Source: Desulfatitalea tepidiphila (lineage in GTDB: Bacteria; Desulfobacterota; Desulfobacteria; Desulfobacterales; Desulfosarcinaceae). Taken from it: DNA of 64,000 bases. Location: NCBI RefSeq assembly GCF_001293685.1, contig NZ_BCAG01000004.1:1-64000 (forward strand). The letters run 5' to 3'. Positions 1-49,016 of this stretch are shown piece after piece; position 1 is the stretch's first letter; each line of letters opens with the position of its first letter. The position numbers and the translations under genes are program-made. The notes beneath the pieces are model-generated. The model had not been told where the DNA came from. It saw only the letters and a list, made by a program, of their open reading frames with translations, and made no database searches.

Positions 1-391
1 AACTCCGCGTCGTGTTGCCCGCCCGGTGCCAAGGATTGCCTTGCTGACGATTTTCTCTGCGTTTCCGCTCGGCCGCCGTCTTCCTGGCATGACAGGAGCG
101 ACACAGGGACCTGGCATTGCTTTCATCCAGCCGGGCGCCGCCGTCCTTGATCTCCACCACATGATCGACAATATCCACGGGCGCCAGGTGCCCGGCAGCG
201 AGACAGTCTTCACAGAGCGGATGCTTCGACTTGTACCAGGTCCTAAACCGCTTCCATGCAGTGCTGTTATAGAATGGGTCGGTGACCTTCTCCGCTGCCG
301 GGGGTCGGTGCTCCCGGCAGTGCGATGAACCGGGTTCGGCCAGGTTGGGGCAGGGGAAGGCTGCACAGTATTTGCGTGGTTTATTTGCCAT
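1..391 (-). CDS. HNH endonuclease, C-terminus cut by window edge
   Basis: This minus-strand frame starts at ATG 391 and is still open at base 1, so the C-terminus is missing. The visible 130 residues carry a C-x2-C pair (CEDC), then a DHVVEIKDGG segment and a second pair (CRSCH) followed by Asn/Arg-rich residues, the usual order of an HNH nuclease of the phage type. In tailed phages such a gene commonly sits just upstream of the terminase genes, so terminase genes may follow beyond the left edge. Its start overlaps the preceding small ORF by 11 bases, indicating translational coupling. The family call is firm; the biological role is inferred. Confidence 0.85.
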   Translation of the reverse strand, partial: MANKPRKYCAAFPCPNLAEPGSSHCREHRPPAAEKVTDPFYNSTAWKRFRTWYKSKHPLCEDCLAAGHLAPVDIVDHVVEIKDGGARLDESNARSLCRSCHARKTAAERKRRENRQQGNPWHRAGNTTRS

Positions 392-542
392 CGATCACCA
401 TGTCATAAGCATCTTCGAGACTATCGAGGCGACGTTCAATTTCGTCCAACCTCTTTTTGATTTGATCCTTGAACAGCTTCTCAACGGTTTTCTTCACAAT
501 GTCCTTGATCTCTTCCTCACGCCATTCTTTTCGTGATCCCAT
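381..542 (-). CDS. Small charged coiled-coil protein (53 aa)
   Basis: This short ORF runs from ATG 542 to TAA at 381-383 and encodes 53 residues very rich in Lys, Glu, Arg and Asp. A heptad-like pattern (about residues 14-45) suggests a single amphipathic helix or coiled coil. It lies between a Cys-rich protein gene and the HNH nuclease gene, and its end overlaps the HNH start, which supports real translation. I do not recognise the family. Small charged proteins of this kind are common in phage early and pre-terminase regions. Confidence 0.55.
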   Translation of the reverse strand: MGSRKEWREEEIKDIVKKTVEKLFKDQIKKRLDEIERRLDSLEDAYDMVIDGK

Positions 543-562
543 GATAACTCCTTTCTTTACCC

Positions 563-889
563 TTAGGCAGCTATGCCCTCGGTTGCGTTAGGTGCTGAAA
601 CCTTGCAGTATCGGGATTGCTTTAACCGTTCGGCTATATTCCGGCGTTGCTCATCCGTCATTTGACGCGGCCTACTGGCATCATACAGTTGTTGATAGGT
701 GACAGGTCGGTCCAACCAGCAGGCCGTCCGCCGTCGTTGTATGGATCGTTGCTTACGAATCCATCGGTGCTGACCATAAACCCGAGATTTGCAGACAGGT
801 TCATCTGAATACCAAATGCGCTCATGTAGATCCGGGTCCAGGGGGCATAGCGGTGCATCGCATGTTTCGAATGAACGGCATCTATCCAT
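563..889 (-). CDS. Small Cys-rich phage-type hypothetical protein
   Basis: The frame is open to 919, but the ATG at 889 has a much better ribosome binding site (GAGGAGGT, 7 bases upstream), giving 108 aa. The N-terminus reads MDRCRSFETCDAPLCPLDP, with three cysteines in a compact pattern and a fourth near residue 33, suggesting a small metal-binding or disulfide knuckle. Similar N-termini (Cys-x-x-x-x-x-Cys-x-A-P-x-C-P-L-D) occur in uncharacterised proteins of prophages and anaerobic bacteria. The C-terminal half is basic (QRRRTACWLDR, RQMTDEQRRN). Function is unknown. Confidence 0.6.
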   Translation of the reverse strand: MDRCRSFETCDAPLCPLDPDLHERIWYSDEPVCKSRVYGQHRWIRKQRSIQRRRTACWLDRPVTYQQLYDASRPRQMTDEQRRNIAERLKQSRYCKVSAPNATEGIAA

Positions 890-902
890 GATGTCCACCT
901 CC

Positions 903-1124
903 TCAATTTGCGATTTCATGACGCAGGCACTCCTGAGCGAAACCGATCACCTGGTCACGGTCGATCCCGTCCCATCGCTCCCGAGTCTCCGCGGCTGCGA
1001 TATACCGCGCCAGCAGTTCGGCCCTCGGCAGGCGGGTCGGTCGATCGGGCTTGCCATGGCTGCCCAGGCCCTTCAGGAAATTAATTTCGATTCCAGTGGT
1101 CCAAGACGGTTGTTCGGTTTTCAT
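903..1124 (-). CDS. Hypothetical phage-type protein (73 aa)
   Basis: A 73-residue ORF whose ATG overlaps the stop of the upstream gene (ATGA at 1121-1124), so the two are translationally coupled. An AGGA lies about 10 bases upstream. The segment GIEINFLKGLGSHGK followed by a short helical region (RAELLARYIAAAETRERWDGI) resembles small uncharacterised proteins in prophages. No catalytic motif or membrane segment is visible, and I do not assign a function. Confidence 0.55.
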   Translation of the reverse strand: MKTEQPSWTTGIEINFLKGLGSHGKPDRPTRLPRAELLARYIAAAETRERWDGIDRDQVIGFAQECLRHEIAN

Positions 1125-1384
1125 GATGCGATCCTTTCAATTTGTTGGTTTCTCAGAATTTTGTGGAGTCCATCCTCGATGTTCCTGGTCGTGGCCTCGA
1201 TGCGCTCCAGGCGGTTCCGGGCATCAAGGTGAAGGTCTATTTCCGGGATCGACTCGCCATGAAGGACATGCCAGCCATGAGCAGATAGGTAGGTAATCAG
1301 CTTGCCGGCCATGGTGGCCGGGTCGGTGTCGGCCGTCTTGATGATGCCGGCGGTCATTGCCTCTAAAAGATCCAGATTCGTCAT
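1121..1384 (-). CDS. Hypothetical helical protein (87 aa)
   Basis: The open frame reaches 1486, but the start at 1384 is preceded by GGAAAGGAGC, so I use it (87 aa, beginning MTNLDLLEAM). The protein is acidic in the middle and ends with a predicted amphipathic helix rich in Arg, Glu and Ile (about residues 52-80). There is no recognisable domain. It is the first of the compact run of small genes (1121-1, minus) that leads to the HNH nuclease, separated from the replication-like gene by the repeat region. Confidence 0.5.
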   Translation of the reverse strand: MTNLDLLEAMTAGIIKTADTDPATMAGKLITYLSAHGWHVLHGESIPEIDLHLDARNRLERIEATTRNIEDGLHKILRNQQIERIAS

Positions 1385-1493
1385 TTTGGATGCTCCTTTC
1401 CGGGTCGTTTTGGGGTCCGGTCGGTTTCGGCCCTCTTTTTTCATGGTTTTCATGAGGTCGATGCGGGTGCCCCCCATGGTATACATGTTAATA

Positions 1494-1621
1494 CGCTCAA
1501 AACTGCACCCTTCCGGGTTTTCGAAAAGCCCGCCATTGCTGGCTTTTTGATTTTAAAGGGTTCACTTTCGGTACCCAAAAGGGTTCACTTTTGAGCGTGT
1601 ATAAGGGTTCACTTTTGAGCG
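1494..1621 (+). repeat. Iteron-like repeats, three direct copies plus one inverted
   Basis: The core AAGGGTTCACTTT occurs at 1556-1568, 1579-1591 and 1603-1615. The last two share the longer form AAGGGTTCACTTTTGAGCG (1579-1597, 1603-1621). Spacing is 23 and 24 bases, about two helical turns. A degenerate inverted copy (CGCTCAAAACTGCACCCTT) is at 1494-1512. The array lies immediately downstream of, and slightly overlaps, the winged-helix gene ending at 1609. Helically phased repeats beside such a gene suggest binding sites for a replication initiator or repressor; that role is inferred. Confidence 0.6.
1527..1549. terminator. Possible hairpin terminator within the repeat region
   Basis: The sequence contains AAAAGCC and GGCTTTTT separated by about 10 bases, forming a hairpin with T-rich flanks on either strand. 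It lies after the winged-helix gene (minus strand), so it could end that transcript. It is short and there is no experimental support. Confidence 0.35.
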
Positions 1622-2070
1622 CGAAAATTATCGGTGCCAGCATTTCGGGTGCCTTGGTATCCCCTTCGGATGTCTCGTTGACGTTGACGGAATATTTTGT
1701 GCTCGGTCCATCCGAGATAGTCTTCCACCAGTGCATAGATGGTCATGTCATGCTCGCCAGTGCCGCCAGCGTGTTTAATCTCGATGAATCCTTTGGCCAG
1801 CAGTTCATCAATGGCGCGGGGGATACTTGTCCGCGCCAAACCGAAGACCCCCTCCAATTTCGTGTACGGCATTTTGATACGATCCAGATCGACGTAACGG
1901 TCTGCCCGGAAACCTTGTTTCAGTGATTTTTTGAAGGCGGGGTTGATCTGCCTGGCGTCCAAGAGGGCCAAAAGCACCATGCGGCCATTTTTGGAGAGGG
2001 CTTGATAAGCGGCCGAATAAAATACTTTCCGTTCGATGTAGATGCCGCCCTCGGGGGTGTCGTTCTTCAT
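1609..2070 (-). CDS. Winged-helix replication-like DNA-binding protein
   Basis: A 153-residue protein with an N-terminal stretch typical of plasmid and phage replication or helix-turn-helix proteins (IERKVFYSAAYQALSKNGRMVLLALLDAR) and a winged-helix recognition region near residues 70-97 (YTKLEGVFGLARTSIPRAIDELLAKGFIEIKHAG). The last 25 residues are basic. Its ATG overlaps the stop of the AlpA-like gene (ATGA). The adjacent iteron-like repeats make a replication initiator or its regulator plausible, but no Rep catalytic motif is visible, so the role remains inferred. Confidence 0.6.
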   Translation of the reverse strand: MKNDTPEGGIYIERKVFYSAAYQALSKNGRMVLLALLDARQINPAFKKSLKQGFRADRYVDLDRIKMPYTKLEGVFGLARTSIPRAIDELLAKGFIEIKHAGGTGEHDMTIYALVEDYLGWTEHKIFRQRQRDIRRGYQGTRNAGTDNFRAQK

Positions 2071-2261
2071 GTGCTGTCCCGCCCCGGCAAACCGTCAAAC
2101 CATCGCCAAACCCGTTCCAGGTCGAACAGGTATTTCTTGCCCAATTTTTTATGAGGCAATGGATAGTCACGCCGCTTTATCAACTTGTAGATCTCGTGCT
2201 CGGACCAAGGAAATTCAGGTCTTGCCGCAAGACCTTTTATGTCCACGACCACCCGCGCCAT
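2067..2261 (-). CDS. AlpA/excisionase-like helix-turn-helix protein
   Basis: This 64-residue protein has the layout of small MerR-fold excisionases: a helix-turn-helix beginning FPWSEHEIYKLIKRRDYPLP, the K-L-G-K-K-Y-L-F strand pair of the wing, and a following helix (LERVWRWFDGL). The ATG at 2261 has GAGGA 10 bases upstream. It follows the Cro-like gene directly and overlaps the winged-helix gene. In integrative elements such proteins direct excision or activate integrase or early genes; no integrase is inside this window. Confidence 0.65.
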   Translation of the reverse strand: MARVVVDIKGLAARPEFPWSEHEIYKLIKRRDYPLPHKKLGKKYLFDLERVWRWFDGLPGRDST

Positions 2262-2444
2262 TTAGAATATTTCCTCGCGGTCGCACTGGAGCATTTCGGC
2301 CCATAGTACTTGCTTGTCTTCCGGCAGGGTCCGCCGGCCTCTGACCACCCTGGAGACGGCTGCGTCATCGGTGCCGATCTTCTGCGCAAAGTCGGCTTGC
2401 GTTCCGAAATGCTCGATGATCTTAAGTTTCAATTTGATGTTCAT
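2262..2444 (-). CDS. Cro/CI-type helix-turn-helix regulator
   Basis: A 60-residue protein that is essentially one helix-turn-helix domain: FGTQADFAQKIGTDDAAVSRVVRGRRTLP, with the classic Q-x-x-x-A-x-x-x-x-x-x-x-x-x-S-R-x-x-x-G spacing. The frame opens earlier at 2465, but the ATG at 2444 has AGGGG seven bases upstream and is preferred. An operator-like inverted repeat (2466-2483) lies just upstream. It is probably a repressor or Cro-like switch of the element. Confidence 0.75.
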   Translation of the reverse strand: MNIKLKLKIIEHFGTQADFAQKIGTDDAAVSRVVRGRRTLPEDKQVLWAEMLQCDREEIF

Positions 2445-2465
2445 GATGCGCCCCTTTTTTGTCAT

Positions 2466-2485
2466 TTGTCACTGCTTACTGACTT
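2466..2485. promoter_or_regulatory. Operator-like inverted repeat upstream of Cro-like gene
   Basis: TTGTCA-CTGCTTAC-TGAC forms an inverted half-site pair with an 8-base spacer. It shares half-sites and spacer length with the site at 3081-3102 in front of the MerR-like gene. Two matched sites in front of two regulators suggest one protein binds both. Confidence 0.5.
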
Positions 2486-2502
2486 CTAATGCTTAAAAAA
2501 AT

Positions 2503-3078
2503 TTACCGGCCGCTGCTAAAAGTTATATTGTGCTTGGCCATGGCCTTGTTGCGGATGTCGCCAAGCCTCAAGATCGTGAAACCAGATACATTGTTATCCA
2601 AGATCCAATCATTGAGTTTTGAATGAAACCCTTCAACATTACCAGTCCCGACCTCAAAATCTTCACTTTCGTCCCATTCTCCACTCTTTATACGGCCCGC
2701 CGCATAAAATTCGATGAAGGACCATTCCGCCCCATTTTCAATATTCTCAACACTTTTGATCTCATAACAATGCAGATAATCATAGAAGTGCCCAAACTGC
2801 GGATTAAGAAGGGTGTCCTTATGTTTTTCACTTAGCCGACCTATTATCCCAAGAATAACTAAAAGTGGCAAACCCATGTCGGCACTCATAAAATCGATCA
2901 TCGCAAACTGTATTAGGTTTTTGTGCGAATAAAGTCGGATATGGCCCTTACCTCGGGCAGGGGCCACTTCCGGTTCGACCAGCTTTATGTCTGTCCAATG
3001 CTTAACGGTCCGAACCGGCCGCCCTATGTGCTCGGCGATCTCTTGCTTCGTGAATTGTCCTGGTGTTTTTGGCTTCAT
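2503..3078 (-). CDS. MerR-like DNA-binding regulator
   Basis: A 191-residue protein with an N-terminal MerR-type winged helix: FTKQEIAEHIGRPVRTVKHWTDIKLVEPEVAPARGKGHIRLYSHKNL (about residues 9-55). The remainder has no recognised ligand domain; a hydrophobic stretch (GLPLLVILGIIGRLSE) is probably a buried helix. It faces the same way as the Cro-like, AlpA-like and winged-helix genes. An inverted repeat sits directly before its start codon, consistent with autoregulation. Its AT-rich sequence differs from the GC-rich chromosome to the right. Confidence 0.65.
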   Translation of the reverse strand: MKPKTPGQFTKQEIAEHIGRPVRTVKHWTDIKLVEPEVAPARGKGHIRLYSHKNLIQFAMIDFMSADMGLPLLVILGIIGRLSEKHKDTLLNPQFGHFYDYLHCYEIKSVENIENGAEWSFIEFYAAGRIKSGEWDESEDFEVGTGNVEGFHSKLNDWILDNNVSGFTILRLGDIRNKAMAKHNITFSSGR

Positions 3079-3080
3079 AA

Positions 3081-3102
3081 GTTGTCACCTATCACTGACA
3101 AC
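3081..3102. promoter_or_regulatory. Operator-like inverted repeat upstream of MerR-like gene
   Basis: GTTGTCA-CCTATCAC-TGACAAC is a perfect 7+7 inverted repeat with an 8-base spacer, two bases upstream of the MerR-like start codon. The same half-sites and spacer length occur at 2466-2485. Confidence 0.6.
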
Positions 3103-3235
3103 AAAGTGTGTCAACAAATTTTTTAGACCCTCTGCGGTACCTAAGGACCTGGCCATCTGGATCAAAAAATCTGGCAGATTTCTGCCATACGACCAGAAAA
3201 AAACGGCTAAAAACGGCTAATATTGACAATTTTGT

Positions 3236-3270
3236 AAAAAAAGAGGGGTTAACCGTATTGGCTAACCCCT
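3236..3270 (-). terminator. Rho-independent terminator of tRNA-Leu
   Basis: On the minus strand, about 10 bases after the tRNA CCA end, a GGGGTTAGCC/GGTTAACCCC stem with a five-base loop is followed by TCTTTTTTT. This is a strong intrinsic terminator for the tRNA transcript and also separates it from the mobile element. Confidence 0.85.
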
Positions 3271-3279
3271 TGATTTTTA

Positions 3280-3366
3280 TGGTGCCGGAGGTCGGAATCG
3301 AACCGACAAGGGCTTGCGCCCGGCGGATTTTGAGTCCGCTGCGTTTACCTATTTCACCACTCCGGC
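3280..3366 (-). tRNA. tRNA-Leu, anticodon CAA
   Basis: An 87-base class II tRNA. The acceptor strand GCCGGAG (3366 inward) pairs with CTCCGGC before an encoded CCA at 3280-3282. The anticodon arm is CGGACTCAAAATCCG with anticodon CAA, followed by a long variable arm (GGGCGCAAGCCC) and T-arm GTCGGTTCGATTCCGAC. Its 3' end faces the mobile-type region at 1-3.1 kb, the usual arrangement when an element has integrated at a tRNA 3' end. Confidence 0.97.
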
Positions 3367-3500
3367 ATGAAAGCGGCTATATATTGAAAAGTGGCCGGGT
3401 TGTCAATGCTCTTGACGGCGCTTTGGCGTCAAGCCTCCAATTCCGTTTGAAAAAGTCGCTTGAACAGATCGGATCTGAAAGGGTTGAGACAAGGCGCCGG

Positions 3501-4157
3501 TCAACCGCCAACGATCTGCGTGAAGGCCGCCAGGACATGCTCACCGGCCACCGCCCCTTCCCTTAGAATGACCGGCACCGTGGCGGTCACATCCACGACG
3601 GTCGAGCCGGGGCCGCCGGCCAGTGGTCCGGCATTCAGCACCAGGTCCGCAGCCTCCAATACGGACGGGTCGATCTCTTCCACGGCAGCACATCCCGGCG
3701 CGCCGGAGCGATTGGCGCTGGTGCCGGTCAGCGGGCAACCTGCGGCGCCCACCAGGGCCGCGGCCACGGGGTGGCGTACCCGGCGCACGCCGATGGTGCC
3801 GCTGCCGCTGGTGAGGATCGGGGACAAGCCGGGGTGGGCCGGCACCACGAAGGTGACGCCGCCCGGCCAGAAGCGGGATATCAGCTGGAGGACCGGGGAA
3901 GCGATTTCGCCGGCCACTTGATCGAGCATCTCCATGCGGTCGATGAGCACCAGAATGGGTTTGCCGGGATCACGGCCCTTGATGCGGAAGATGCGCGCCA
4001 GGGCTTCCGGCTTGCCGGCATCGGCGGCCAGGCCGTACAAGCCGGTGGTGGGGATGATCACGACGCCGCCCTGTCGGATGAGCCCGGCGGCCCGCTCGAT
4101 GGTGTCGCGGGCCGGCTGCCGGGCATCCACGGCAATGATGTTACCGGTAGGCTTCAA
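3501..4157 (-). CDS. tsaC: Threonylcarbamoyl-AMP synthase (Sua5/YrdC/YwlC family)
   Basis: The enzyme forms threonylcarbamoyl-AMP from Thr, bicarbonate and ATP for the t6A37 modification of ANN-decoding tRNAs. The sequence has the family core: [18 protein letters not shown], the [13 protein letters not shown] segment, the FWPGGVTFV strand, and GTSANRSG near the C-terminus, at about 210 aa. The start is uncertain because there is no ATG near the family N-terminus ([10 protein letters not shown]). I use TTG 4157, which has AAGG upstream and overlaps the PurDE gene by 17 bases; GTG 4130 is the alternative. It is probably cotranscribed with the purine gene. Confidence 0.85.
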
Positions 4158-5913
4158 GGCGTTTGGCCTTGCGCTCGACCTCGTCGGCCATCTCCTGCTT
4201 AAACCGGCCCAGCAGGGCGGCCAGTTGGGGATCGGCCAGGGCCAGAATCTGGACGGCCAGGATGCCGGCGTTGCGGGCGCCAGGCTTGCCCACGGCCACG
4301 GTGGCCACCGGGATGCCGGGGGGCATCTGCACGGTGGAGAGCAGGGCGTCGAGGCCTTGCAGGCTCGATGAGTCGATGGGCACGCCGATGACCGGGAGCG
4401 AGGTCTGGGCCGCCATAGCCCCGGCCAGATGGGCCGCATGGCCCGCGCCGGCGATGATCACCTTGATGCCGCGCTCGGCCGCCGTGGCGGCGAAGCGGGC
4501 GGCCCGCTCGGGCGTGCGGTGGGCCGAGGCCACGGTCATTTCAAAGGGCACGCCGAACTTTTTCAACATGGCCACGGCCCCTTCCATGACGGAGAGGTCC
4601 GAGTCGCTGCCCATGACGATGCCCACCTGTGGCTTGACCTGGAACCGCTTCAGGGCCTTGAGGCCGATATCCTTGCGATAGTGGACATCTTTCCAACTGA
4701 TCTTGGCCACGGCCTGGTAAGCTTTCTGGATGGCCTTTTCGACATTGTCGCCCAGGGCGGTGACGCCCAGGACCCGTCCGCCGTTGGCCACGATAGCGCC
4801 GTCCCTGGCGGCGGTGCCGGCATGGAACACGGTGACGTCTTTCATGCGCTTGACCTGGTCCAGGCCGCTGATGGAGTGGCCTTTTTTATAGCTGCCCGGA
4901 TAGCCGCCGGCGGCCATGACCACGCACACCGTGGCGCGCGGGTCGATGTCGAGGCGGCACTGATCCAGGCGGCCGTCGATGATGGCCTCCATGATGGGCA
5001 CCAGGTCGCTCTTGAGGCGCATGAGCAACGGCTGGGCCTCGGGATCGCCGAAGCGGCCGTTGAATTCGAGCACCTTGATGCGGTCGCGGTCGATCATCAA
5101 GCCGGCGTAGAGCACGCCCTTGTAAGGCCGGCCCTCGGCCGCCATGCCGCGCACCGTGGGCAGCATGATCTCTTTGATCACCTTGTCGTGCAGGAACTGA
5201 TCGACCACGGGGGCCGGCGAATAGGCGCCCATGCCGCCGGTGTTGGGCCCCTTGTCGTCGTCGAAGACCGGCTTGTGATCCTGGGAGGTGGGCAGGGGCA
5301 GGACGGTCTTGCCGTCGGTGAAGGCCAGGAAGGAGGCCTCTTCGCCCACCAGGCACTCTTCCACCACCACCTGGCGGCCGGCGTCGCCAAAGGCCTTGTC
5401 CACCATGATCTGCTTGAGTCCGGAGATGGCCTTGGCCACGGTGTCGCAGACGATGACGCCCTTGCCGGCGGCCAGGCCGTCGGCCTTCACGACGATGGGC
5501 GCACCCACCTTTTTGACATAGGCCTCGGCCTGTTTATAGCTGCTGAAGGTAGCACCCTGGGCCGTGGGTACGCCGTACTTGTTCATGATGTACTTGGCAA
5601 AGGATTTGCTCGCCTCGATGGCCGCCGCCTTCTGGCTGGCGCCGAAGATGCGCAGGCCCGCCTCTTCGAACCGATCCACGATGCCCATGGACAATGGGCC
5701 TTCAGGGCCCACGACGGTCAGATCGATCGTGTTCTGACGCGCGAAAGCCAGCAACTGGTCCACGTCCTCTGCGCCGATGGGCACACACTCGGCCAGTTCG
5801 GCGATGCCCGCGTTGCCCGGCGCGCAGTAGATCTTTTTGACCAACGGGCTCTGACTGATTTTCCAAACCATGGCGTGTTCGCGACCGCCGCCGCCGACCA
5901 CCAGTACGTTCAT
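4141..5913 (-). CDS. purDE: PurD-PurE fusion: GAR synthetase / N5-CAIR mutase
   Basis: One uninterrupted 590-residue frame joins two purine enzymes. Residues 1 to about 425 are PurD (phosphoribosylamine-glycine ligase): GGGGREHA nucleotide-binding loop, ATP-grasp segment with [15 protein letters not shown], and [12 protein letters not shown]. Residues from about 427 to 590 are a class I Pur[19 protein letters not shown], and the [15 protein letters not shown] region. The linker is only a few residues ([13 protein letters not shown]) and has no stop or evident internal start, so the polypeptide is fused. The two enzymes act at non-consecutive steps of IMP synthesis. Both halves look intact. 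Confidence 0.93.
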
Positions 5914-45539: not shown

Positions 45540-46565
45540 TTAAACATTTCCCAACGACAACCTGGGGACATCCAGATGGGCTACCAAAGTATTTCTGATC
45601 TGGCGATCGGTCGGCTCCTCAGGCGATACGCCGGCCCGGTGGGTATAACGCGCCAACATGTCATGGGGCGGTACCCCCGCCAGGACACACAGATCGAACC
45701 TCGCACCGTCCTCCTGATCCTTCTGCGCCGCAGCGAGGTGATCTAAAGATACCCCATATGGATCGTCGGCCCGGGCAAGGGCGCTGAAAGCGCTGCGCCA
45801 TGCCTCGGAAGAAGTCGGCCCGCCTGCATCGGAACTTGCTGTCAAATCCAGTGTCGCTTCAAATAGATGAGTCGATTCCGGAAAATCGTCACGAAACAGC
45901 TCCCACACGGCCCGACTGGTGGTGACCAGAAGCGTGGTCGGCACACCGCAGGCGAGGGCCAGTTCCGCCCAGGCCTGCATCCGCTGAGCCGTCATGAAGG
46001 CGCCGGGGTCCATGTCATGGTCTGCCGCGGCGAAGTTCAAGTGCGGGCCCAGAGCGGTGTCGCTGTCGCTCGCCCCACCCAGGATCTCCCCGAAGCGCCT
46101 CTCGAGGGTGTGCACCGACCCCAGATCCCGAACAAGGGCTTCCTGCTGCTCATCGTAATCGTGGGCCAGCGCCAGAAAAACGCCGGCACTGAAAAAGGTA
46201 TCGAATGGAGAAGAAGATGGGGAAGTGTCGGCACCGCGGCGCACTTGGGTACGTATTTCGGCCGTCGGCGGCCCTTGGTGCCACGAACCCAATCCTTGTG
46301 CGGATTGGAAAAAACGCTTAAGGTCCCCGGGCTTGCCGCCCTGCAGCGCCGCCCATGCCGTAAACTGCTTCAAGGCCTGCTCGATGCGGGCCGCATCGAC
46401 ACCGTCCGGCGTGCGCAATTGCACTTTTCCTGCCGCCACCTGCTCGCTCACGGCTGGCGACATCTGTTTGGGAAGCGGTGCCAGAAGGTTGACCGAGCCC
46501 AGGATTGCGGTCAACGGTTTGATCAAATTCTCGGGCAAAAAGGTAAACGGAAAATAAAACATCAT
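45540..46565 (-). CDS. Hypothetical protein (341 aa)
   Basis: The frame is open to 46712, but the first 45 codons fall in the MITE copy and are not likely coding; a start at 46565 (ATG ATG pair) gives 341 aa. The protein begins with a hydrophobic-acidic stretch (MMFYFPFTFLPENLIKPL). It is rich in Ala, Asp and Glu with no catalytic motif or membrane segment. A segment LALAHDYDEQQEALVRDLGSVHTLERRFGEILG looks helical. I cannot assign a family. Confidence 0.55.
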   Translation of the reverse strand: MMFYFPFTFLPENLIKPLTAILGSVNLLAPLPKQMSPAVSEQVAAGKVQLRTPDGVDAARIEQALKQFTAWAALQGGKPGDLKRFFQSAQGLGSWHQGPPTAEIRTQVRRGADTSPSSSPFDTFFSAGVFLALAHDYDEQQEALVRDLGSVHTLERRFGEILGGASDSDTALGPHLNFAAADHDMDPGAFMTAQRMQAWAELALACGVPTTLLVTTSRAVWELFRDDFPESTHLFEATLDLTASSDAGGPTSSEAWRSAFSALARADDPYGVSLDHLAAAQKDQEDGARFDLCVLAGVPPHDMLARYTHRAGVSPEEPTDRQIRNTLVAHLDVPRLSLGNV

Positions 46566-46594
46566 GTCAAATCTCATCAATTTAATGAAGCTAT

Positions 46595-46733
46595 TGTCCG
46601 TCCACAAATAGGCAAATTGGGTCGAGATCAAGGCGCACGAAAAATTTAACCGCAGGCATATGACGGATATTCCGAGGATTAAATTTTTCGTGCAACGCCG
46701 ATATCGGGCCAATTGGCCATTTGTGGATGGGCA
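46595..46733. repeat. 139-bp MITE-like element, copy B
   Basis: The second copy of the element at 9299-9437, with the same ends. It is flanked by a 4-bp duplication CTAT (46591-46594 and 46734-46737). The right-hand CTAT includes the stop codon of the cysteine synthase fusion gene (CTA on the plus strand, TAG read on the minus). Differences from copy A are mostly in the centre of the hairpin. Confidence 0.85.
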
Positions 46734-49016
46734 CTATGATAACTTTTCGTCTCTTATGGTCACCCCCAACGCCTCCAGCTCCTGCCGAAGCCGATCGGCC
46801 AGCGGCCAGTCCCGCGCTTTCCGCGCGGTCGCCCGTTGGTCGAGCAACCCTTGGATACGGGGGTCTTCGCAAGCCTGCTCAAAGCAGAAAACGCCTAACA
46901 CGGCATCGATGCTCCGAAAGGCGGAAACCACCGCCGGCACCTGTTCCGGGTCGATGGAGCGCGCGGCCGCAAGGCGATTGAGCTGTTTGACCACCTTGAA
47001 AATCGCGGCCAGGGCCGCCGAAATGTTCAGGTCGTCGTCCATGGCGGTGTTGAATCCGCTTTTCAGATCATACAGCAACTGATCTAGCTCCTTGAAGGTC
47101 TCGCCGCGTTCGATCTGCTGCAGGGCGGTCAGGCAGCCGTCCAGGCGTTGCAACGCCCGGTGGGTATAGTGTAACCGCTCCTGGGAAAAAACGACCGGTT
47201 TGTGGTAATGGGTCGACAGGAGCCAGAAGCGGATTTCCCGGCCCGTCCAACCCTGTGACAACAGATCACGGACCGTCACCCCCCCCCCTTTTTCATCGAC
47301 CTTTTTGCCGTCGACCAACACCCGGTCGCAATGCAGCCAGAAGCGGGCCAGAGGCTTTTTGTTGAGGGCGCCGGCGATGGCGATCTCGTTTTCGTGCAAG
47401 GGGAAAAGCAGCTCGCGTCCGGCGATATGGATATCGCAGGTTTCCCCCAGGTATTTCATGGCCAGGGTCGCACATTGCAGCGGCCACGAAGGCTGCACAT
47501 TGCCCCACGGCGTCTTGGTGTAAAGTCCCTTTTTCAACTCCGACAGGCGAACCCGCTTGAGCAGGGTGAAATCCCGGGGGTTGTCTTTTTCGTAATCTTC
47601 CAGATCGACGGTGGCCCCCAGCCGGATCTTGTTCAGGTCGATGCCGGAAAGCTGGCCATAGTCCTCGAAGCGGGAAATATCGAAATAGAGCGACCGCAGC
47701 TTCTCGTAAGCGAACCCCTTGTTCACCAGTTGCTGCACCACCTGGACCATGTCGTCGGTATGATCGCTGGATCGCGGGTAGTGTTCGACCTTGCGGATGC
47801 CCAGAGCATCCCTGTCCTGCTCGAAAGCGGCGATATTCCCATCGGCGAAATCGGCGAGCGACATACCGGCATCGGCCGCCCCATGAAACGTCTTCTCGTC
47901 CAGATCCGTGATATTGGTGACATGCAAGACCGAATAACCGCGATAGGCCAGATAGCGATCGACCAGATCGGCAAAGACGAACCGGCGGGCATCGGCCACC
48001 TGGGTCGGCGCGTGGGCCGTGGGACCGGTGGTGTAGATCGTCACCCGGTCCAGGCGCTGGGGGGCGAAGATTTCCTTGGTGCGCGTGCGGGTATTGAACA
48101 GATTCAGACCGACCTTCTCACGTTCGGTAAAAAGAGAAGTGGAGAGATAGCGCTCCCCGCTGTCGGGCAGGATCACGACGATCATGCCCGACGTCATCTC
48201 GGCGGCCTGGCGCACTGCCACGGCCATGGCCGCACCACTGCTCATGCCCACGAACAATCCCTCCTCGCGGGCCAGGCGGCGGGCCATTTCAAAGGCCTCC
48301 TCATCCTCGATGTTGACCTTGACGTCCAGGCGCTCCTTTTCAAAAATTTCAGGCTGGTACGACTCTTTTAAATTCTTGAGACCCTGAATTTTATGGCCGA
48401 GATAGGGCTCCACGCCGACGATGCGAATGTCCGGGTTCAACTCTTTCAATCGCCGCGACAGTCCCATCAAGGTGCCCGAGGTGCCCAGGGTGGCCACGAT
48501 GGCGGTGACCCGGCCGCCGGTCTGTTCCCAGATTTCATTGGCCGTGCCGTGGTAATGGGCCTGCCAGTTGGCCTCGTTGTTGTATTGATCGGTGATGTAG
48601 TATTGATCCGGGAATTCGCGGGCCAGCCGGTAGGCCTCCTCGATGGCGCCGTCCGTGCCGAGATGGCCAGGCGTCAGGCGAATCTCCGCGCCCCGTGCGC
48701 GAAGGATCTTCTGGCGCTCCACGCTGGCATTTTCCGACATGGTGAGCAGCAGGCGGTATCCTTTGATGGCGCACACCAGGGCCAGACCGATACCGGTGTT
48801 ACCGCTGGTCGCCTCCACGACGGTCTTTTTGGGGGTCAGCTCGCCGGAACGTTCGGCCGCTTCGATCATGAACATCGCGGCCCGATCCTTGATGGAACCG
48901 CCCGGATTCAGATATTCCAGCTTGGCCAAGATCGGGACCTGGGGATTGGGGTTGATCCGTCGGATCTCGACCAGAGGGGTGTTGCCGATCAAATCGAGGA
49001 TAGTTGAAGATTTCAT
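46734..49016 (-). CDS. Cysteine synthase fused to degenerate cysteinyl-tRNA synthetase
   Basis: A 760-residue fusion from ATG 49016. Residues 1-305 are a PLP cysteine synthase: PGGSIKDR with PLP Lys43, TSGNTG at 70-75, GTSGTLMG, GMSSGAA. Residues about 307-760 align with CysRS throughout (LFNTRTRTKEIF ... ALNKKPLARFWLH ... TVRDLL), but signatures are lost. HIGN is replaced by QVAD (339-342), KMSKS by KVDEK (572-576). The Zn set has lost Cys (Thr near 330) and the first His of HHENE (Leu540), keeping Cys515 and Glu544. The first half looks active; the second is probably not an aminoacyl-tRNA synthetase. No stop or frameshift interrupts it. It lies upstream of tmk-group genes on the same strand. 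Confidence 0.92.
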   Translation of the reverse strand: MKSSTILDLIGNTPLVEIRRINPNPQVPILAKLEYLNPGGSIKDRAAMFMIEAAERSGELTPKKTVVEATSGNTGIGLALVCAIKGYRLLLTMSENASVERQKILRARGAEIRLTPGHLGTDGAIEEAYRLAREFPDQYYITDQYNNEANWQAHYHGTANEIWEQTGGRVTAIVATLGTSGTLMGLSRRLKELNPDIRIVGVEPYLGHKIQGLKNLKESYQPEIFEKERLDVKVNIEDEEAFEMARRLAREEGLFVGMSSGAAMAVAVRQAAEMTSGMIVVILPDSGERYLSTSLFTEREKVGLNLFNTRTRTKEIFAPQRLDRVTIYTTGPTAHAPTQVADARRFVFADLVDRYLAYRGYSVLHVTNITDLDEKTFHGAADAGMSLADFADGNIAAFEQDRDALGIRKVEHYPRSSDHTDDMVQVVQQLVNKGFAYEKLRSLYFDISRFEDYGQLSGIDLNKIRLGATVDLEDYEKDNPRDFTLLKRVRLSELKKGLYTKTPWGNVQPSWPLQCATLAMKYLGETCDIHIAGRELLFPLHENEIAIAGALNKKPLARFWLHCDRVLVDGKKVDEKGGGVTVRDLLSQGWTGREIRFWLLSTHYHKPVVFSQERLHYTHRALQRLDGCLTALQQIERGETFKELDQLLYDLKSGFNTAMDDDLNISAALAAIFKVVKQLNRLAAARSIDPEQVPAVVSAFRSIDAVLGVFCFEQACEDPRIQGLLDQRATARKARDWPLADRLRQELEALGVTIRDEKLS

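Follow-up and report, generated by a model that had tools for sequence, protein, structure and literature searches.

The fused gene at positions 46734 to 49016 of the window, the 64,000-nucleotide stretch of the Desulfatitalea tepidiphila genome analysed here, raises the question of what a cysteinyl-tRNA synthetase (CysRS) devoid of its activation signatures may be doing at the C-terminal end of a cysteine synthase.

Architecture of the fused gene

The minus-strand frame at 46734-49016 runs unbroken from ATG to stop over 760 residues. Its Pfam domain set and invariant motifs agree with the preliminary description, in which an intact PLP cysteine synthase and a whole-length CysRS-like half share a single frame free of stops. 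The gene and its domains are as follows.

46734..49016, minus strand: whole fused gene, 760 aa plus stop, known in 185 distinct full-length versions
48162..48998, minus strand: cysteine synthase (PALP) half, residues 7-285, cysKM subfamily (Pfam 258.9 bits; TIGR01136 359.6 against a cut-off of 344.15; Foldseek matches to CysM/CysK)
47163..48062, minus strand: CysRS-like catalytic domain, residues 319-618, without HIGH and KMSKS (Pfam tRNA-synt_1e, 235.1 bits; residue map)
46887..47054, minus strand: DALR_2 helical domain, residues 655-710 (Pfam)
46743..46862, minus strand: anticodon-binding domain, residues 719-758, with R728, R732, W737 and D741, corresponding to E. coli R423, R427, W432 and D436 (Pfam CysS_C)

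The synthase half is very probably an active cysteine synthase of the CysM/CysK type. Its K43, SGNTG, GTxGT and S259 positions show no variation across the 71 rows of an alignment of fusions. Among its best 50 Foldseek matches the CysM/CysK chains have TMt values of 0.82-0.97. The D. tepidiphila fusion lies over the cysKM cut-off (TIGR01136) and under the separate cutoffs for cysM and cysK. Residues 304-757 span the full length of a CysRS, including the catalytic domain, the DALR helices and the anticodon-binding domain, and form a CysRS-derived C-terminal arm of about 460 residues. That this arm retains the whole fold is supported by an AlphaFold2 model (mean pLDDT 89.3, pTM 0.76, with residues 467-478 below 50). 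Among the Foldseek matches listed, the second half aligns with CysRS chains at TMt 0.75-0.91, the value for the tRNA-bound E. coli CysRS (1u0b) being 0.85 over 472 columns. The NCBIfam cysS model gives the D. tepidiphila fusion 315.6 bits, under its cut-off of 340.

A run of ten G at 47279-47288, a possible slippage site, adjoins the KMSKS-equivalent; a frameshift at this run is ruled out, since relatives have the same frame and a similar motif pattern. The concern raised earlier, that an artefact might conceal intact motifs, is likewise set aside: 197 full-length copies of the fusion, 185 of them distinct (that of D. tepidiphila included), exclude a sequencing error as its source.

Lost and retained catalytic residues

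The HIGH and KMSKS signatures and the zinc site are needed for cysteine activation by CysRS and by its relative MshC. The D. tepidiphila fusion was positioned on E. coli CysRS, in which we take C28, C209, H234 and E238 to be the zinc ligands and likewise assume functional roles for T68, W205, D229, K266 and K269, the letters at the motif positions having been checked. This residue map places the relevant positions as follows (counts refer to the fusions that keep the E. coli residue).

48027..48029, minus strand: position of zinc ligand 1 (Cys28), Thr330; Cys in 150/185 fusions
47991..48002, minus strand: HIGH-equivalent (E. coli 37-40), QVAD, residues 339-342 (Q339-D342)
47472..47474, minus strand: position of zinc ligand 2 (Cys209), Cys515, kept; 167/185
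47397..47399, minus strand: position of zinc ligand 3 (His234), Leu540; His in 174/185
47385..47387, minus strand: position of zinc ligand 4 (Glu238), Glu544, kept; 136/185
47289..47303, minus strand: KMSKS-equivalent (E. coli 266-270), KVDEK, residues 572-576 (K572-K576)

The map bears out the earlier reading that HIGN had become QVAD and KMSKS had become KVDEK. T330 and L540 confirm that two of the four zinc ligands are gone (Thr for Cys, Leu for His), the set C28/C209/H234/E238 reading T/C/L/E.

The family was compared with normal CysRS by means of two sets. The first comprises 185 fusions, retained as distinct from 197 full copies after partial, split or frameshifted ones had been set aside; the second comprises 59 normal CysRS, 58 from the same phylum plus that of E. 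coli (L136 and L137 were dropped), and thus represents the phylum rather than all bacteria. HxG[HN] is found in 10/185 fusions as opposed to 59/59 normal CysRS, both KMSKS lysines (K266 and K269) in 0/185 as opposed to 59/59, and G226 of the GGxD loop in 39/185 as opposed to 59/59, while the two signatures occur together in none of the fusions and in all 59 normal enzymes. These comparisons strongly support the loss of amino-acid activation in the CysRS half. Individual activation residues are found here and there (H37 in 91 fusions, K266 in 111, the sequence KMSRS in 26), and on a tree of the synthase halves of 124 fusions H37 requires 23 changes and K266 18, as against five for the zinc site (Cys28, Cys209, His234) and three for Trp205. 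Activation appears to have gone by the time the sampled family began to diverge, if not earlier, with the remaining activation residues drifting. As 44 of 64 fused halves nevertheless exceed the NCBI curated cut-off for cysteine--tRNA ligase, and no compared fusion has both signatures, the family is open to misannotation.

The cysteine pocket seems to have fared better. Cys28, Cys209 and His234 are jointly kept in 150/185 fusions and the full CCHE set in 119, with Thr68 present in 149 and Trp205 in 157. The pocket apparently persisted in most lineages and was lost a few times later on, loss being the simpler direction because normal CysRS has the pocket. In the stretch containing the zinc site and the GGxD loop (196-250) the mean pairwise identity is lower among fusions than among normal CysRS, 0.60 vs 0.77. 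The disappearance of zinc ligands noted in the preliminary description holds for the D. tepidiphila fusion but does not define the family. It is lineage-specific and includes the source genus, Cys28 and His234 both being replaced in 10/10 of its sampled members.

Conservation of the anticodon reader

Residues R423, R427, W432 and D436 of E. coli CysRS are described as contacts of G34 in the complex with tRNA (1u0b), a description credited in part to Hauenstein 2004, in PMC12684709. All four positions are kept in 185/185 fusions: Arg423 in 185, Arg427 in 181 with Lys in the other four, an aromatic residue (W, F or Y) at 432 in 185, and Asp436 in 185; D. tepidiphila has R, R, W and D. Normal CysRS has 86 conserved columns. 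Retention among the fusions is 97-100% for the six that fall in the anticodon domain and averages 70% for the other 80; a random draw of six such columns would give this result with a chance of 0.0008 if shared ancestry is ignored. Invariance alone is not special to this domain, since 22 of the 28 columns kept in at least 97% of fusions sit outside it, and its residues may owe their conservation in part to structure. Between pairs of fusions the identity of this domain averages 0.41, close to the 0.43 seen in normal CysRS. Among the sampled fusions tRNA reading thus appears never to have been lost, and the persistence of the reader in 185/185 fusions while the ATP site decayed favours tRNA binding as a retained property. 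The fusions also have residues of their own: R345, R488 and G589 (D. tepidiphila numbering) occur in 184, 185 and 183 of the 185.

Selection, distribution and origin

The survey of dN/dS in the second half, proposed in the preliminary description, was carried out on 55 pairs from 11 sequences (10 of the genus and one of the family). In the 14 closest pairs the ratio is 0.065-0.139 in the CysRS half and 0.044-0.104 in the synthase half; these values are rough, many pairs being almost saturated with synonymous changes. Purifying selection on the CysRS half is supported by these ratios, although this half changes faster, its mean identity over all 55 pairs being 0.73 vs 0.85 for the synthase half. 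Together with the separate canonical cysS described below and the absence of the paired signatures from all 185 fusions, this upholds the earlier view of the arm as a retained pseudo-synthetase.

Matches at E <= 1e-100 were found in 260/291 genomes of the source class, a few weak ones of which may be to a synthase only. In a sample of the phylum 128/297 genomes gave matches at the same threshold, 11 of them to the synthase half only, and the fusion is present in 117/297, three of these copies being partial. It occurs in 55/60 genomes around the source, the source included, where some copies are partial and that of G047 is a C-terminal fragment only. The titles of the 80 loci listed among 162 are mostly those of Desulfobacterales, Desulfobulbaceae and their kin. 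When 34 fused halves were placed in a tree with 52 normal CysRS, one branch separated the former from the latter (SH-aLRT 99, quick search), and on the scale of the phylum the fusion is apparently of single origin. Recent decay is unlikely given the purifying selection and this single branch. One fusion locus may lie outside the phylum, in a 'Myxococcales' MAG (L106, coverage 2.2) that is possibly misbinned. The fused gene reads as two frames at G025:C119:46282-48461 and G315:C1:2736763-2739059, where a frameshift, an assembly error or a true split may be responsible.

The genomic context of the fusion

The genome of D. tepidiphila (5.61 Mb, 7 contigs, 98% complete) has the second, canonical cysS that the preliminary description had proposed to look for; this separate gene (L003) encodes intact HIGN and KMAKS. 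Likewise, 64/64 fusion genomes outside the class (64 of the 107 found there were taken) have a CysRS distinct from the fusion that scores above the curated cut-off (in G340 in two frames), and 52/55 near genomes with the fusion have a separate CysRS, the three without it being 64, 65 and 73% complete. The fusion as the sole CysRS is ruled out for its own genome and for nearly all genomes checked. The fusion is also not the only likely route to cysteine in D. tepidiphila, as a separate cysK adjoins the best match to a serine acetyltransferase (cysE-like), itself under the family cut-off.

One ordinary tRNA-Cys (GCA) was found among at least 44 tRNA matches in the D. tepidiphila genome, a set obtained by scoring 150 of 178 candidates; with no Ile GAT tRNA in it, this list may fall short of the full complement. 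No special tRNA-Cys partner for the fusion was seen among those 44 matches. The genome carries a tRNA-Sec, and the sole tRNA within the 64-kb window is a tRNA-Leu at 3280-3366.

Several other CysRS relatives were encountered. In two genomes that also bear the fusion, extra CysRS with a HIGN-type motif, KMAKS and zinc residues intact are encoded at 342-2513 (minus strand) of L332 (G357:C27) and 2005-4191 (plus strand) of L333 (G321:C1). About 260 further residues follow at their C-terminal end, with a likeness to a glycosyltransferase judged only by eye, and these long frames are not motif-intact versions of the fusion, having a different C-terminal extension and no cysteine synthase. In L329 (G006:C22), a relative at 2235-3347, whose match to E. 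coli CysRS stops at residue 368, before the anticodon domain, has KMSKS and the zinc site intact and lies 2 kb from a tRNA-Sec gene (197-283), an arrangement that fits the CysRS*/SelC* recoding of Desulfobacterales. Another, at 2082-3254 (minus strand) of L328 (G001:C2), is 38% identical to residues 1-390 of E. coli CysRS, with a Gly/Ser-rich stretch replacing KMSKS. Finally, relatives in L330 (G578:C32) and L331 (G559:C34) have HVGN/HLGN and KMSKS, with Asp for Cys209 and an altered HHENE motif, changes that suggest another substrate.

The neighbours of the fusion (tmk, an HD/OB protein and surE) give no hint of cysteine regulation. The tmk gene is immediately upstream in 41/185 loci, many of which have short flanks. 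A gene at 45540-46712 on the minus strand, directly downstream of the fusion, has no Pfam match; its relatives occupy the same place in 63/185 loci, that of D. tepidiphila included, many flanks again being short. No operon clue to the CysRS arm was obtained, the eight unfused relatives of the synthase half being without a CysRS within the stretches examined.

Comparison with known systems

The fusion resembles CysM/CysK (O-acetylserine sulfhydrylase) in its complete PLP domain with invariant catalytic motifs and differs by its 460-residue C-terminal arm. It resembles CysRS in the full domain set, the fold, the anticodon reader and, mostly, the zinc/cysteine pocket. It differs from CysRS in that no fusion has both signatures, in its position behind a cysteine synthase and in its coexistence with a normal CysRS.

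Two other systems offer closer parallels. HisZ, which is not known to bind tRNA, is like the fusion a synthetase relative tied to a biosynthetic enzyme of its own amino acid; the fusion differs in being derived from CysRS and not HisRS, in its covalent linkage and in the kept anticodon-reading residues. According to PMC4335047, HisZ is the HisRS relative through which histidine controls HisG, and the HisRS-like domain of Gcn2 binds uncharged tRNA. Gcn2 likewise has a synthetase-like domain fused to an effector, used there for tRNA binding. The effector of the fusion is a metabolic enzyme and not a kinase, the protein is bacterial, and its cognate anticodon residues are preserved. Sequence and model agree in finding here what marks the HisZ/Gcn2 type, the fold of a synthetase stripped of its activation residues and tied to an effector enzyme.

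MshC and CysRS* are two further CysRS relatives. MshC activates cysteine with ATP and is compared with a CysRS minus the anticodon domain in PMC5370406; as another CysRS relative outside translation it resembles the fusion, which differs in having lost activation and kept the anticodon domain. Identity with MshC is ruled out by the score of the MshC model (157.4 bits against a cut-off of 485.1) and by the lost motifs. The CysRS* of Desulfobacterales, which according to PMC9437257 has no anticodon domain and charges SelC*, comes from the same bacterial group and shows the opposite pattern. The presence of the anticodon domain in the fusion rules out a CysRS* engaged in UGA recoding.

No description of the fusion was found in the open-access literature, to which the search was confined; the architecture may already be listed in subscription papers or domain-architecture databases. 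The fusion goes unmentioned in the available portions of PMC9437257, PMC5370406, PMC5424206, PMC2922099, PMC7373986, PMC9976931 and PMC8762117, and that of PMC4921024 has no terms relevant to it.

Possible function of the CysRS-derived arm

The CysRS half is probably a built-in sensor or docking arm. The reading to which we lean, giving it about an even chance, is that the arm is a catalytically dead pseudo-synthetase that has kept its hold on tRNA-Cys, probably binds cysteine as well in most lineages, and regulates or docks the synthase; the binding of tRNA-Cys and the regulation are what we infer. The arm would bind tRNA-Cys, most likely the GCA tRNA that is also charged by the normal CysRS, and in zinc-intact lineages it would also bind cysteine or the cysteinyl end of charged tRNA. 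Occupancy of the pseudo-active site, by uncharged or charged tRNA-Cys and with or without cysteine, might then raise, lower or localise the activity of the fused synthase, and cysteine synthesis would follow translational demand. The preliminary description had left the choice between a tRNA or cysteine sensor and a scaffold; the evidence ranks tRNA binding ahead, and the assignment stays conjectural. The invariant anticodon reader makes the tRNA branch, as in Gcn2, preferable to the HisZ-like one, and the mostly kept zinc pocket means that cysteine may matter too.

It is possible, if rather unlikely, that the arm acts in feedback like HisZ, with the pseudo-active site binding free cysteine via zinc and inhibiting or tuning the synthase, and with no role for tRNA. 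HisZ provides the precedent of a HisRS relative controlling the pathway of its own amino acid (PMC4335047), and the retention of the CCH set, W205 and T68 (150, 157 and 149 of 185) above that of ATP-site residues fits such a pocket. Under this reading nothing would hold the anticodon reader constant, yet 185/185 fusions retain it, and with about five losses of the zinc site, D. tepidiphila being among the lineages affected, a zinc-dependent cysteine sensor cannot be universal.

Somewhat more doubtful is a scaffolding or channelling role, in which the arm would hold the synthase at tRNA-Cys, or close to the CysRS that serves translation, for local delivery of cysteine, with no allostery. It draws on the same binding evidence as the regulatory reading preferred here, and the fold is whole in the model. 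The retained cysteine pocket of most fusions would, however, be left unexplained unless the pocket holds the product.

There is a slim chance that the CysRS half still activates cysteine by an altered chemistry or makes an MshC-like conjugate of it. The fusions with H37, K266 or KMSRS counted above might be so read, but both KMSKS lysines occur in none, H37 and K266 change often, and the MshC score lies far under its cut-off. A related proposal concerns persulfides, whose synthesis by CysRS runs through its lysine motifs; it is unlikely here, with K269 in 7, K73 in 111 and K76 in 12 of 185 fusions, although K76 is present in only 23/59 normal CysRS as well.

Quite improbable is a synthase half that acts on a serine derivative borne by tRNA and held by the dead CysRS half, swapping in sulfide to give Cys-tRNA-Cys directly. 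A normal CysRS coexists with the fusion, the substrate of cysteine synthases is O-acetylserine in its free form, and nothing is known here that would load a serine derivative onto tRNA-Cys. The joining of a PLP beta-replacement domain to a likely tRNA-Cys binder does loosely recall SepCysS with SepRS, as these are presented in PMC5424206 and PMC8762117. If true, these bacteria would make cysteine in a tRNA-dependent manner of their own, the second of its kind, beside the normal CysRS.

That the arm is a slowly decaying, functionless remnant is scarcely credible: the lost signatures, the zinc site lost in several lineages and the faster evolution of the CysRS half would suit it, but the low dN/dS of this half, the near-invariance of R345, R488 and G589 and the wide retention of the fusion speak against it.

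Under the favoured reading of a tRNA-Cys-binding pseudo-synthetase, a HisZ-type tie to a pathway and a Gcn2-type sensing of tRNA appear to be combined within a single polypeptide, found across a large group of relatives of sulfate reducers. The sequences form a natural series in which activation is lost in 185/185 fusions, the zinc site in some and the tRNA-reading residues in none. If tRNA-Cys does gate the synthase, translational demand would directly control an amino-acid biosynthetic enzyme in these bacteria.
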